Part shown: positions 52,140 through 56,686 of the stretch, in pieces | Layout: every line of letters starts with the position of its first letter | How positions within the stretch are numbered: position 1 is the first letter of the stretch | Source: Aeriscardovia sp. | GTDB taxonomy: Bacteria > Actinomycetota > Actinomycetes > Actinomycetales > Bifidobacteriaceae | DNA length: 64,000 nt | NCBI GenBank assembly: GCA_017965665.1 | Contig: JAGCPN010000007.1 | Location: 62,001-126,000 of the forward strand | Direction: 5' to 3' | Translations under genes and position numbers: made by a program | The notes under the pieces: generated by a model | Told to the model about the DNA's origin: nothing | Database searches by the model: none | What the model saw: only the letters and a program-made list of their open reading frames with translations

Positions 52140-52508
52140 GGGGCCGACAGGTTTCGACGGCGGTTTACCTCATCCAGCTGGCATGTCGGGAATGCAAAGT
52201 ATCCCGTAAAAGGCCTTTGCAAAACTATAAGTGCCAAGAATATAAATCGCACTGAGTTCGCCCTCGCTGCCTAGTTTGCAGTAAGGCTTACTCCCTCCGC
52301 TCATTTCGCCTTGAAGAAAGCGGGGATGATAATTTTAAAGGCTTGCCCCTGCGCCGGAGCTTACGGGCGCAGGAGGACTTCTTGAAAGCTAAGCCGTCTG
52401 TAGATTGTCTATAGAGATACAGAGGCTGAAAAACTGACTATATGGACTAAACATGTAGAAGGCTGGATAGGGGATCGTCGGACCCGGGTTCAACTCCCGG
52501 CGACTCCA
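52140..52508 (+). ncRNA. ssrA: transfer-messenger RNA (tmRNA)
   Basis: A 369-nt one-piece tmRNA. The 5' end GGGGCCGACAGGTTTCGACGG and the 3' T-arm CCGGGTTCAACTCCCGG with CGACTCCA form the tRNA-like part. The tag reading frame at 52233-52274 starts at the resume codon GCC and encodes AKNINRTEFALAA followed by TAG. The ALAA end is the usual protease-recognition signal, and NRTEFALAA is very like the bifidobacterial tags I recall. CCA is not encoded. It rescues stalled ribosomes with SmpB (5816-6313). Confidence 0.97.
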
Positions 52509-52668
52509 CTGGAAAAGTTTGCGGCAGGGACGCAGTTGTGAGCTGTATGCCATTTTGTAGAGTTTAATTCGTTTTAGATTTTAAAAGTGGGAATACATAT
52601 GGGTAAAGATAAAGGCTGTTTAAATATGCAAACTGAAAAATTTTGATCCGCACATATTCTATTTCAGA
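52509..52668. other. AT-rich non-coding spacer between tmRNA and the accessory block
   Basis: About 160 bases without a convincing reading frame, much richer in A and T than the core genes. A tmRNA 3' end is a frequent integration site for islands, and I looked here and near 56.7 kb for a repeated copy of the tmRNA T-arm; none was found. Nothing else is recognisable. Confidence 0.6.
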
Positions 52669-52727: not shown

Positions 52728-54014
52728 TTAATCTCTCAGCGTGCCAATGGGTACCACAAATACCCCGTCCGGCCTTTGATAGGCATAAGGGCAGTCTCCT
52801 ACCAAAACCATTAAAAACGAAGGTTCCTTCATTTTATCCGTGTTAAGTTGAGAAGCTATGCTTTTGAGTGTTTTAGCGGCATTTTCTATAGCGTCACTTC
52901 CTCCAAGCTTAATTTCTACAAGACCGTATCTTCCATCCCTAAGATGAATTACGGCATCGCATTCCAAACCTTTTTCCGTACGAAAATGATATATATTTCC
53001 ATCCAAAGGTTGTGCGTAAACTCTCAAATCCCGGATGCAAAGGGTTTCAAAAAGGAAACCGAATGTTTTCACATCGTTCATCAGATCCCCAGGACCTAAA
53101 GCCAAAGCCGCAGCAGCAATGGAAGGATCTGTAAAATAGCGCGTGCTGGAAGTGCGGATGGCGGCTTTTGAACGTAGGTTGGGGTTCCAAGCGAGGGCAT
53201 CTTCAAGCACAAAAATTTTATTTAGAGCCTCCATATAAGAGGATACAGTTTCTCTGCTCATCTCAATCTGGCTATATTCTGCAATGTCCTTAGAAATCGT
53301 AGAGAATGAAACGCTTGTTCCCTGATGACGCGCCAGGGAACGCAGTAACTGTCTTGTCATAGATTCGTTGCGCGATACGTTGTCAACACGGATAATGTCT
53401 GATTTAACCACAGAATCCACATAATCTAAAGCACTTCGAATAGCATATTTTTCACTGATGAAAATTGAATCTGGCCATCCCCCGCGGCAGACCAAAAAGG
53501 CGAGATCTTTAAAGCCCACTTTGTTTCTTGCAAAAAAATTTTCCTCCTTAGCTGAAGAAAATAGTTTACTCAGGCTTATTTCTCCAGAAGATTCTCCGGA
53601 TTCGTAAAGACTCATTGGACGCATCTTGATCCAAGCAAATCTTCCCGTTCCAGTATGAAGAATTTTGCTTCTGTCTGCAGGAACGGCTGATCCAGTTAAA
53701 ATAAATTGCCCAAAACCAGATCGGTGATCGACCTCATATCTCACCTCATCCCAAATGCGCGGAGCCACCTGCCACTCGTCTATCAAGCGCGGAGTCGCTC
53801 CTTGCAAAAGCAGGCTCGGTTTAAGGTCAGCCAACAGGAGATTTTGTTCGCGATCATCCGTATTGCCCATATTTAGTACACTTTTGGCAAAGTGCTCGCA
53901 AGTTGTAGTCTTTCCGCAATATTTTGCCCCCTCAACCAGAATCGCCCCTTTATATTGCAGGCATTCTTCGATGGTTTTCTCTATAATCCTGTACTTGTAA
54001 TTGGCTGTTTGCAT
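52728..54014 (-). CDS. AAA_14/DUF4143 ATPase
   Basis: 428 residues. An N-terminal P-loop domain with Walker A GAKYCGKTTT (29-38) and Walker B PRLIDEWQ (D79-E80), a sensor-like FILTGSAVP, a winged-helix middle region (RSLARHQGTSVSFSTISKDIAEYSQIE), and a C-terminal DUF4143 part with LECDAVIHLRDGRYGLVEIKLGG, which has the D...ExK pattern of the PD-(D/E)XK fold. Such proteins are very common in anaerobes and their function is unknown. The predicted leader is extremely short: TATACT lies 14 nt from the ATG, and no ribosome-binding site is seen. Base composition is richer in A and T than in neighbouring core genes. Confidence 0.88.
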   Translation of the reverse strand: MQTANYKYRIIEKTIEECLQYKGAILVEGAKYCGKTTTCEHFAKSVLNMGNTDDREQNLLLADLKPSLLLQGATPRLIDEWQVAPRIWDEVRYEVDHRSGFGQFILTGSAVPADRSKILHTGTGRFAWIKMRPMSLYESGESSGEISLSKLFSSAKEENFFARNKVGFKDLAFLVCRGGWPDSIFISEKYAIRSALDYVDSVVKSDIIRVDNVSRNESMTRQLLRSLARHQGTSVSFSTISKDIAEYSQIEMSRETVSSYMEALNKIFVLEDALAWNPNLRSKAAIRTSSTRYFTDPSIAAAALALGPGDLMNDVKTFGFLFETLCIRDLRVYAQPLDGNIYHFRTEKGLECDAVIHLRDGRYGLVEIKLGGSDAIENAAKTLKSIASQLNTDKMKEPSFLMVLVGDCPYAYQRPDGVFVVPIGTLRD

Positions 54015-54167: not shown

Positions 54168-54611
54168 GTGAAAGAACGAATTGTCGATAGTGAAGTCAGA
54201 TTAATTCCATATTACAGAAATGACGAGGCCTCGCTTCCCTGGTATCAAGATTTAGATCTGTGCAGGCAGGTCGATAACAGAGACAAGCCCTACAATATAA
54301 ATCTTTTGCATAGCATGTATGACTTTCTCTGCTCTCACGGAGAGTGCTATTACATTGAATACAGGGGCAAATTAGTTGGAGATGTTTCTCTGAGGGACAA
54401 CGCAGAAATTGCCATCGTAGTGTGCAAAGAGTTTCAGAACCGCCATATCGGCCGGCGCTGCGCAAAGGAAATGCTGAAACTCGCAAGTGAAAAAGGAATG
54501 GAGTTTGTGAAAGCGAATATTTATTCTTTCAATCATCAGAGCAGGCGTATGTTTGAGTCGATCGGGTTCTACCAAACGGATGAAGAATGGTACCGGCACG
54601 ACTTAATATGA
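54168..54611 (+). CDS. GNAT-family N-acetyltransferase
   Basis: 147 residues from a GTG, with GGAGAGG 5 nt upstream. The GNAT fold shows VRLIPYYRNDEASLPWYQD at the start, YIEYRGKLVGDVSL, the acetyl-CoA region IAIVVCKEFQNRHIGRRCAKEML (QxxGxG/A-like, here QNRHIG) and NHQSRRMFESIGFYQ at the end. The substrate is unknown; small-molecule or protein acetylation are both possible. It lies between the tandem repeat and the nuclease pair, with AT-rich composition. Confidence 0.88.
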   Translation: MKERIVDSEVRLIPYYRNDEASLPWYQDLDLCRQVDNRDKPYNINLLHSMYDFLCSHGECYYIEYRGKLVGDVSLRDNAEIAIVVCKEFQNRHIGRRCAKEMLKLASEKGMEFVKANIYSFNHQSRRMFESIGFYQTDEEWYRHDLI

Positions 54612-54809: not shown

Positions 54810-55511
54810 ATGTTTATAGCCATAAGCTGCATAGTTCTAGTGGCGATCGCAGCTTCTATAGTTTCCTACATAGTTTTAAAGTCTCCCTTCAGTTACCCCT
54901 ACTTCACCCGCTCTATAGATATTTCCGGAAAGAGAAAGCCCGACATAGAGGATCTGGTAGACCAATATCTCATTGATTGCGGGATGAGAGATGTGGAAAA
55001 AGAGCGGGCCCGGGTGGCCGCATGGAAGGCCGAGTGCAAAAAAGAGATAGCAAAAAGTCCTTTTCGGGGCAGGAGGGAAAAGCAGTTTGAAGCCGTAGTA
55101 GACGACGATCACGCCTACCGCTTCACAGCTTTCAGGATGCAGACAAGGTACCAGCAGCGCAACTATCAGAGGACGGCATATAGAGTAAGAAATGAAATTG
55201 GAACCTACTCATGCAACTATGCCTACCTCGCCTCCAGAAATGCCATGCTGGCAAGCATCAATTACGAAACCACGCTGAAAAAGTACAACAGCCAGGAACA
55301 GAGAAGGCTTCTCACTCCCAAGCTTAGACAGGAAATCATGGAGAGGGACAACTACACCTGCCAAATCTGCGGGAAGTATATGCCTGACAAAGTAGGGCTG
55401 CAGATAGACCACATAATCCCCATAGCCAAGGGAGGAAAGACCGTGCCCTCAAACCTTCAGGTTTTGTGCTCTAGGTGCAACGGAAGTAAGCACGACAAAC
55501 TTGGACAATGA
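54810..55511 (+). CDS. membrane-anchored HNH endonuclease
   Basis: 233 residues, GGGGG 4 nt before the ATG. One hydrophobic helix at the very N-terminus (about 4-24) is followed by a charged region of ~140 residues with no family I recognise. A C-terminal HNH domain (about 168-230) follows: RDNYTCQIC (C184, C187), the DH pair at D200-H201 in LQIDHIIPIAKGG, N215 in SNLQVLCSRCN (C220, C223). The four cysteines form the structural zinc site. A nuclease held at the membrane would suit defence against incoming DNA or a DNA-processing role, which is inference. Coupled to the next gene by ATGA. Confidence 0.88.
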   Translation: MFIAISCIVLVAIAASIVSYIVLKSPFSYPYFTRSIDISGKRKPDIEDLVDQYLIDCGMRDVEKERARVAAWKAECKKEIAKSPFRGRREKQFEAVVDDDHAYRFTAFRMQTRYQQRNYQRTAYRVRNEIGTYSCNYAYLASRNAMLASINYETTLKKYNSQEQRRLLTPKLRQEIMERDNYTCQICGKYMPDKVGLQIDHIIPIAKGGKTVPSNLQVLCSRCNGSKHDKLGQ

Positions 55512-56686
55512 CGTTAGAGTGTAAAATTTGGGACATGGAACAAATACAATTTGCGGAGCTAAAAAGAAGATTAAAAGTCCTCAAAGACAATCTTACTTCC
55601 GAGTACGGTCCCTCATCGGACGGGATCTCCATTCGTCCTCCCGAGTGGCAAGAAAGCCAACTCGAGGCATATATAATAGAACCTTTTACGCAAGCGCTTG
55701 GATTTAAACCCGGTGACCCAAAGAGTCCCGAAACGGTCTTACCTCAGCCCTACAGAGGAGTGCGAAGTCCAAATACACGGGCAGATTTTGGCCTTTATTT
55801 AAACTCGCAACTTGTAATAGTTATAGAGTGTAAAAGGCTTAATGAGTCTTTGGACAAGGATGTTTCCCAGTTAGATGAATATTTTCGTCCCCAGACGGGT
55901 CAAATCAATACCGTAAAAGTCGGAATCCTCACTAACGGGGATGAGTTTAGGTTTTATACGGATTATGAAAACCACAACGTCATGGATTGTGAACCCTACT
56001 GGAAATTCAGGTTGTCGGAACTGTCAGATAAAGATGTACGAACCTTATTGCTCTATGCTACTGGAAATCTAGAAGAGACCCTACGCGATCTACCAGCGAT
56101 TGTTTACGCCGAAAAGCTTAAGCGATGGCTGTTAGAGGGGGGCAAAGAAAATCTAGAGTGGCTTTACAAAGCAACATCTAAAGAGATAAAAGCAGATAGT
56201 CATAATAAAAAGCTATATGCAGAAAAGGTCTGGGATTTTATCTTCCCTACCAGCAATGCAGCAGAAGGTAGTTTGGACATGTTTAAGGCCAATGTCGCAG
56301 ACCTCCACAGTGCAGAAGAAAAACATTCAATAGAAGGCAAAAAGATTAATTTAAGCAATCTTTCTTCGCCCTACCCGAAAATTTCTGGCTATGAAATCGA
56401 AGATATCGGTTTTGAGAGGGTGAATAATTGGGCTGAAGCGCTTGTGAGCATTATCAGAACTCTTTGCGAAAAATATGATCTGCCGGATCGTATGCAAAAG
56501 AATTTGGGATGGTTTCGACAAGTGGCGATCAATAATCCATCCAAACCCAATCAAACTTGGGTTAAAGTGACAAATGAGTACGAAGTTAATACGCACAGCA
56601 GTACTGAGGATAAGATTAGCGAGCTGAAAAAATGTTTCAAAGCGATCGGTATCAACATGAATAGGGTACACTTCTACTCTCGTTAA
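55508..56686 (+). CDS. stand-alone HsdR_N-type restriction nuclease domain protein
   Basis: 392 residues; the start overlaps the HNH gene's stop (an ATG at 55535 is an alternative). The N-terminal ~170 residues resemble the HSDR_N domain of type I restriction subunit R, a PD-(D/E)XK nuclease: ADFGLYL gives D93 and VIVIECKRL gives E107-x-K109, followed by QLDEYF. The helicase domains of a real HsdR are missing; the C-terminal ~200 residues are unrelated to helicases and unrecognised. No hsdM or hsdS is nearby. Composition is AT-rich and core codon bias is absent, suggesting transfer. Confidence 0.85.
   Translation: MTLECKIWDMEQIQFAELKRRLKVLKDNLTSEYGPSSDGISIRPPEWQESQLEAYIIEPFTQALGFKPGDPKSPETVLPQPYRGVRSPNTRADFGLYLNSQLVIVIECKRLNESLDKDVSQLDEYFRPQTGQINTVKVGILTNGDEFRFYTDYENHNVMDCEPYWKFRLSELSDKDVRTLLLYATGNLEETLRDLPAIVYAEKLKRWLLEGGKENLEWLYKATSKEIKADSHNKKLYAEKVWDFIFPTSNAAEGSLDMFKANVADLHSAEEKHSIEGKKINLSNLSSPYPKISGYEIEDIGFERVNNWAEALVSIIRTLCEKYDLPDRMQKNLGWFRQVAINNPSKPNQTWVKVTNEYEVNTHSSTEDKISELKKCFKAIGINMNRVHFYSR

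Follow-up and report, generated by a model that had tools for sequence, protein, structure and literature searches.

A candidate phase-variable HSDR_N nuclease and a membrane-anchored HNH protein share a variable island in Aeriscardovia

The two nuclease genes considered here resemble several systems that have been described in other bacteria and in phages. SNIPE, a nuclease anchored in the membrane, cleaves phage DNA while it is being injected (Nature 2026, PMC13190303); toxicity is reported for its untethered form. Phase variation of methylases is well known from the review literature, and in Helicobacter, Neisseria, Moraxella and Campylobacter restriction and Mod genes of this kind carry a homopolymer tract near the start, with a broken frame in sequenced copies. 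Closer to our organism, the pili of Bifidobacterium are switched on and off by replication slippage at G-tracts; in B. breve, a member of the same bacterial family, an intragenic G/C tract splits one ORF in two (PMC9187656). A further group are the stand-alone HSDR_N proteins of temperate phages and actinobacteria (phrog_4225, 'type I restriction endonuclease'), which have the same core as the protein described below, a length of ~350–390 aa and neither motor nor methylase.

The locus compared with these systems lies in a window of 64,000 nucleotides, the whole stretch of DNA analysed, from an Aeriscardovia genome (G000) of 785 kb that is 99.85% complete and is called reduced-genome. The named sister genomes are Aeriscardovia MAGs with water buffalo, yak and goat abomasum as sources. 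A tmRNA gene on the left and nnrD (56883) on the right delimit an island with a GC content of 43–45% against 57–60% in the flanks, which agrees with the deviating composition noted in a first-pass annotation of the letters. Inside lies a pair of genes for an HNH and an HSDR_N protein (Table 1), accompanied by a GNAT gene and an ATPase gene, whose product matches the PADLOC candidate family PDC-S01 strongly (E 1e-61).

Table 1 Features of the island and of the nuclease pair within the window
Feature	Position	Strand	Remarks
tmRNA gene	52140..52509	+	left edge of the low-GC variable island
DUF4143/AAA_14 ATPase gene	52728..54014	-	PADLOC candidate PDC-S01; only in G000 and G001
GNAT acetyltransferase gene	54168..54611	+	syntenic upstream of HNH in G001, G002 and G005 (shortened ORF in G005)
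Membrane-anchored HNH nuclease gene, P0001	54810..55511	+	233 aa; ORF, Pfam HNH, family alignment, charge topology, purifying selection
Stand-alone HSDR_N nuclease gene as called, P0002	55508..56686	+	392 aa; ORF, Pfam HSDR_N, invariant catalytic residues, fold
Probable true HSDR_N start codon, ATG of MEQ...	55535..55537	+	kept in four sister species; upstream frame there without a start
ATTCGTCCTCCC, site of the sisters' 9-10 bp poly-C tract	55631..55642	+	tract missing here, frame open
C-terminal domain with SeqA-like predicted fold (residues 296-389), tentative	56393..56674	+	fold Z 7.9 (1lrr), 7.8 (3sk7) and 7.5 (1iu3) to three SeqA structures

Three sister genomes (G001, G002 and G005) have a common gene order, namely murC, tmRNA, variable genes, GNAT, HNH, an optional insert, HSDR_N, nnrD and alr; in G006 the locus is split over two contigs, and a GNAT gene upstream of HNH was not recognised. 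The insert between HNH and HSDR_N consists of reverse-strand genes whose products are putative membrane proteins with no match in Pfam (L071:9046-10614 in G002, L072:7760-9481 in G005). Other restriction genes occupy this variable site in a sister species: at the same chromosomal position G001 has an MmeI-like type IIG restriction-methylase as well as a second HSDR_N protein (L070:3349-7777). The earlier statement that no methylase is nearby holds for the window but does not carry over to this sister, and on another contig, outside the window, the organism's own genome encodes a Mod-like methylase of type III whose gene has a G9 tract (L119:2-1684, G000:C8).

The first protein of the pair, P0001, starts with a strongly hydrophobic helix (residues 1–23) and ends with an HNH domain (residues 184–230, Pfam E 3e-15), the only domain that Pfam recognises. 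As first proposed from the letters, the N-terminal helix and the HNH residues are present: C184, C187, D200, H201, N215, C220 and C223 are invariant in an alignment of eight full-length homologues, which also have the linker in common. With two phage loci added, a scan of named genomes yielded 53 full-architecture loci, some of them shortened by contig ends; most come from gut Clostridia and Coriobacteriia. The catalytic motif is found in 51 of 52 family members, and positive charge follows the helix in the same fraction (51/52). Because of this charge the nuclease domain of the family should face the cytoplasm, a prediction that is in keeping with the proposed nuclease at the membrane where DNA enters. 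The gene is under purifying selection.

P0001 resembles SNIPE in having an N-terminal membrane helix, a nuclease that is predicted to be cytoplasmic, and a single gene without a methylase. It differs by its HNH instead of a GIY-YIG nuclease, by the missing DUF4041 and by its linker. A match to PtuB of the Septu system in PADLOC is weak (E 1.5e-7, bits 29) and covers the HNH end only; Septu (PtuA/PtuB) was rejected as an identity, as there is no PtuA partner and the ATPase of the island falls into another family, the PDC-S01 candidate named above.

The second protein, P0002, contains an HSDR_N domain (Pfam E 9e-11) and no further domain above the Pfam cut-off. The PD-(D/E)XK core noticed at first (D93, E107 and K109) is there, and its residues are invariant in 20 HSDR_N homologues together with E49 and Q121 of the QxxxY motif, so that the catalytic residues of both nucleases are kept in homologues. 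A model built from the alignment of these 20 sequences (mean pLDDT 72, compared to 35 for a single-sequence model) resembles HsdR and type IIG nucleases with Z values of 10–12. When features of type I restriction were tested, the HsdR nuclease fold (Z 9–12 to HsdR) and residues were found in P0002, but the helicase motor is absent from its 392 residues, and the ORFs of the island (HNH, GNAT, ATPase and nnrD) include no HsdM or HsdS. Judged by alignment and model, P0002 is a solitary PD-(D/E)XK nuclease with a type I/IIG restriction fold that lacks motor and methylase, and both proteins of the pair look like active nucleases under purifying selection.

No PADLOC model matches P0002, and single-sequence scans of genome contigs and viral contigs returned no close relatives. 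Stand-alone HSDR_N relatives are often met in the lysogeny modules of temperate phages, where their neighbours are repressor, metalloprotease and integrase genes (L224, L245, L272, L294 and other viral loci). Lysogeny modules often hold genes that protect the host. The phage proteins differ from the Aeriscardovia protein in their C-terminal part, and none of 79 phage copies has a homopolymer tract. The ATGA link between the two frames, on which the pairing had been based in part, is literally present in the window, but four sister species keep the ATG at 55535, which is residue 10 of the called ORF. Since this is the start common to all five copies, the 4-bp overlap is probably not used and represents an over-extended ORF.

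It is in the sister species that the HSDR_N gene shows its most conspicuous feature. In G001, G002, G005 and G006 it starts with MEQEQFS and continues for ~32 codons into a run of 9–10 C, beyond which the nuclease core is encoded in another frame. The tract sits at the same codons in all four species, each represented by one assembly, and in these assemblies no frame is open from start to core. The frame would be restored by one more C (+1) in G001 and G002, which gives 10 C, and by one fewer (-1) in G005 and G006, which gives 9 and 8 C, respectively; changes in both directions are what random slippage predicts. The window has ATTCGTCCTCCC at the position of the tract, and its frame is open: this copy has lost the tract, reads through (ON) and is not switchable by it, which is why the switch escaped the first-pass annotation.

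Comparing G002 with G006 gave a pS of 0.51 and a pN of 0.052 before the tract, and a pS of 0.63 and a pN of 0.116 after it. By these values both parts of the gene are under purifying selection, which speaks against simple decay. A weak alternative start may be used in two of the species, since the frame of the core contains an ATG upstream of the tract in G005 and a TTG just after the tract in G001; none was found before the first core helix in G002 and G006. Together, the tract and the frame break of the sister genes appear to be the signature of a slipped-strand ON/OFF switch, and this is the strongest new point of our analysis. The arrangement is that of the examples named at the outset, from Helicobacter to Campylobacter, but here it concerns a solitary nuclease without methylase in a genus of the Bifidobacteriaceae. 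With the B. breve switch it has the intragenic tract in common, whereas the latter concerns pili instead of restriction genes and had its length variation measured. In the literature searched, which covered few subscription papers, we found neither an earlier report of a phase-variable stand-alone HSDR_N nuclease nor an earlier description of the HNH family.

Tracts of this kind are not confined to the island. Seven genomes contain 35 C/G tracts of at least 9 bp, and 13 of the 35 belong to restriction-type genes: HSDR_N (4), type III Mod (3), Eco57I-type methylases (4), an MmeI-like IIG enzyme (1) and an McrB-like AAA protein (1), the tract of the last lying just upstream of the likely start. 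Of the 12 restriction-type genes that contain the tract in their coding region, 10 are out of frame, compared to none of four other genes that have a tract of 9 (RNR, BipA, an ECF transporter and a glycosyltransferase-like gene); the difference in frame state between the gene classes has a Fisher p of 0.006, with the limit that orthologous tracts do not count as separate events. Binomial figures for the tracts assume that 2–5% of the sequence lies in restriction genes. The raw tract count per genome does not stand out given the base composition, and it is exceeded in other genera of the family. Their number alone is therefore no evidence, and it is gene class and frame state that carry the argument.

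Several of these genes deserve to be listed individually. The type III Mod-like gene of the window's genome is in frame with its tract of 9, as is its orthologue in G005 (9); the one in G004, with a tract of 10, is out of frame. The four Eco57I-type methylase genes of G002, G005 and G006, the last with two (L106:287-2291, L113:2282-4274, L079:323-2258, L099:775-2353), are each split into two frames by a C/G tract of 9–10 bp at the same GGV motif. In G003 a 9-G tract (L121:948) puts the orthologue of the MmeI-like IIG gene out of frame. The same genome encodes a protein of >1000 aa with a signal-like N-terminus that is out of frame by an 11-bp tract (L122:3-3135, G003:C1), a possible phase-variable surface protein. 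Lastly, in another genus of the family (G016, L303:6449-7632) the gene of an HSDR_N-RAMA protein adjoins a tRNA gene, and an 11-C tract precedes its start codon by a few bases, which suggests that the association of tracts with restriction genes may have arisen more than once.

SeqA is a reader of methylated DNA. Its C-terminal domain resembles the predicted fold of residues 296–389 of P0002, part of the ~200 C-terminal residues that had been called unrecognised. About 92 residues align with each of the three SeqA structures, at Z values below 8 (Table 1) that may reflect just a common arrangement; hmmsearch, Pfam and hhalign gave no sequence support for the link, and shuffled sequences score equally high. 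SeqA, in addition, is not a nuclease. From the model, the C-terminal part of P0002 probably reads DNA, and it possibly senses the methylation state. One could go further and imagine that the solitary phase-variable HSDR_N nuclease recognises methyl marks by means of a SeqA-like domain and thereby keeps watch over the output of the phase-variable methylases of the genus, with the membrane-tethered HNH protein of a large undescribed gut family guarding the entry, but this combined picture is doubtful.

Could the frame breaks have a more trivial origin? The sister genes might be decaying pseudogenes, or the breaks might be homopolymer errors of metagenome assembly. The frame is broken in each of the four copies with the tract, homopolymers are difficult to sequence, and in G006 the gene spans two contigs and has an in-frame stop upstream in the frame of the core. 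We nonetheless regard decay or error as improbable: neither half is disrupted, purifying selection acts on both at a synonymous divergence that is saturated, the cores contain no other frame breaks, and the equally long tracts in the four other genes are all in frame. Even if the lengths were wrong, the tract itself would still be kept in four species. If the frame were restored only when the gene is expressed, through ribosomal or transcriptional slippage at the run of C in place of slippage of the DNA, this would explain why both halves are conserved despite the out-of-frame state, and 9–10 C are slippery for polymerases. A fixed programmed ribosomal frameshift is ruled out by the needed direction, which differs between the species; this point does not bear on two-way transcriptional slippage, but the gene of the window does without either, and we consider slippage in expression highly improbable. 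A DNA-level switch is the reading that we retain for the sister genes.

The relation of the two nucleases to each other has to be weighed as well, as does the role of the HNH protein. The pair had been taken for one small defence module in which both enzymes act jointly at the point of DNA entry, possibly along with the neighbouring GNAT and ATPase genes. The genes are indeed adjacent in G000, G001 and, across the contig break, G006, their frames overlap in the window, and all five genus members carrying both have them in the same block. This co-occurrence is that of one vertically inherited locus, and it ends at the border of the genus: no HSDR_N gene was found within about 5 kb of HNH at any locus outside Aeriscardovia among the 53 HNH loci (some shortened by contig ends), and many genomes and phages have HSDR_N but lack this HNH. 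Moreover, reverse-strand genes separate the two in two of the five species (G002 and G005), only HSDR_N carries the tract, and HNH evolves much more slowly (77% identity to G002 compared to 52% for HSDR_N). A joint module is thus very unlikely, and for the participation of the GNAT and ATPase genes no evidence was found. A role of the HNH protein outside defence, in DNA uptake, phage DNA packaging or selfish homing, has more in its favour and is still rather unlikely. Two phages encode the protein, in the region before the terminase (L022) and at the end of the phage record (L062), both with identical-scoring counterparts in bacterial genomes (L155 and L183), and the neighbours in cellular genomes are varied and often housekeeping genes. 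However, most members lack recognisable phage surroundings, the tally of family neighbours yielded no recurring partner gene, be it of a packaging or a competence family, and the terminase of L022 has another small HNH gene closer to it.

We therefore favour, with some confidence, two separate restriction-type nucleases that share one variable island: an HSDR_N enzyme that is switchable in the genus, and an SNIPE-like HNH enzyme at the membrane. Both probably act on foreign DNA. In living cells, replication slippage in the poly-C tract just before the catalytic core would place the core in or out of frame, and the nuclease would then be made by only part of the population; in the genome of the window, with the tract gone, HSDR_N is read through. 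Recognition of DNA or of its methylation by the C-terminal part could direct cleavage to DNA that is foreign or carries the wrong marks, with no need of a partner methylase. The HNH protein, tethered by its single N-terminal helix and with a nuclease domain predicted to be cytoplasmic, could cut entering DNA as SNIPE does, which would give it an anti-phage or anti-plasmid role.

What might such an arrangement mean for its owner? A solitary nuclease without a protective methylase endangers the cell that makes it, and random ON/OFF switching would be a simple answer to this problem. Aeriscardovia would then pair a reduced genome with several switchable restriction genes, a combination known from Helicobacter pylori, which belongs to an unrelated phylum. 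The HNH family, in turn, is an unrelated candidate for SNIPE-type membrane defence in common gut bacteria.
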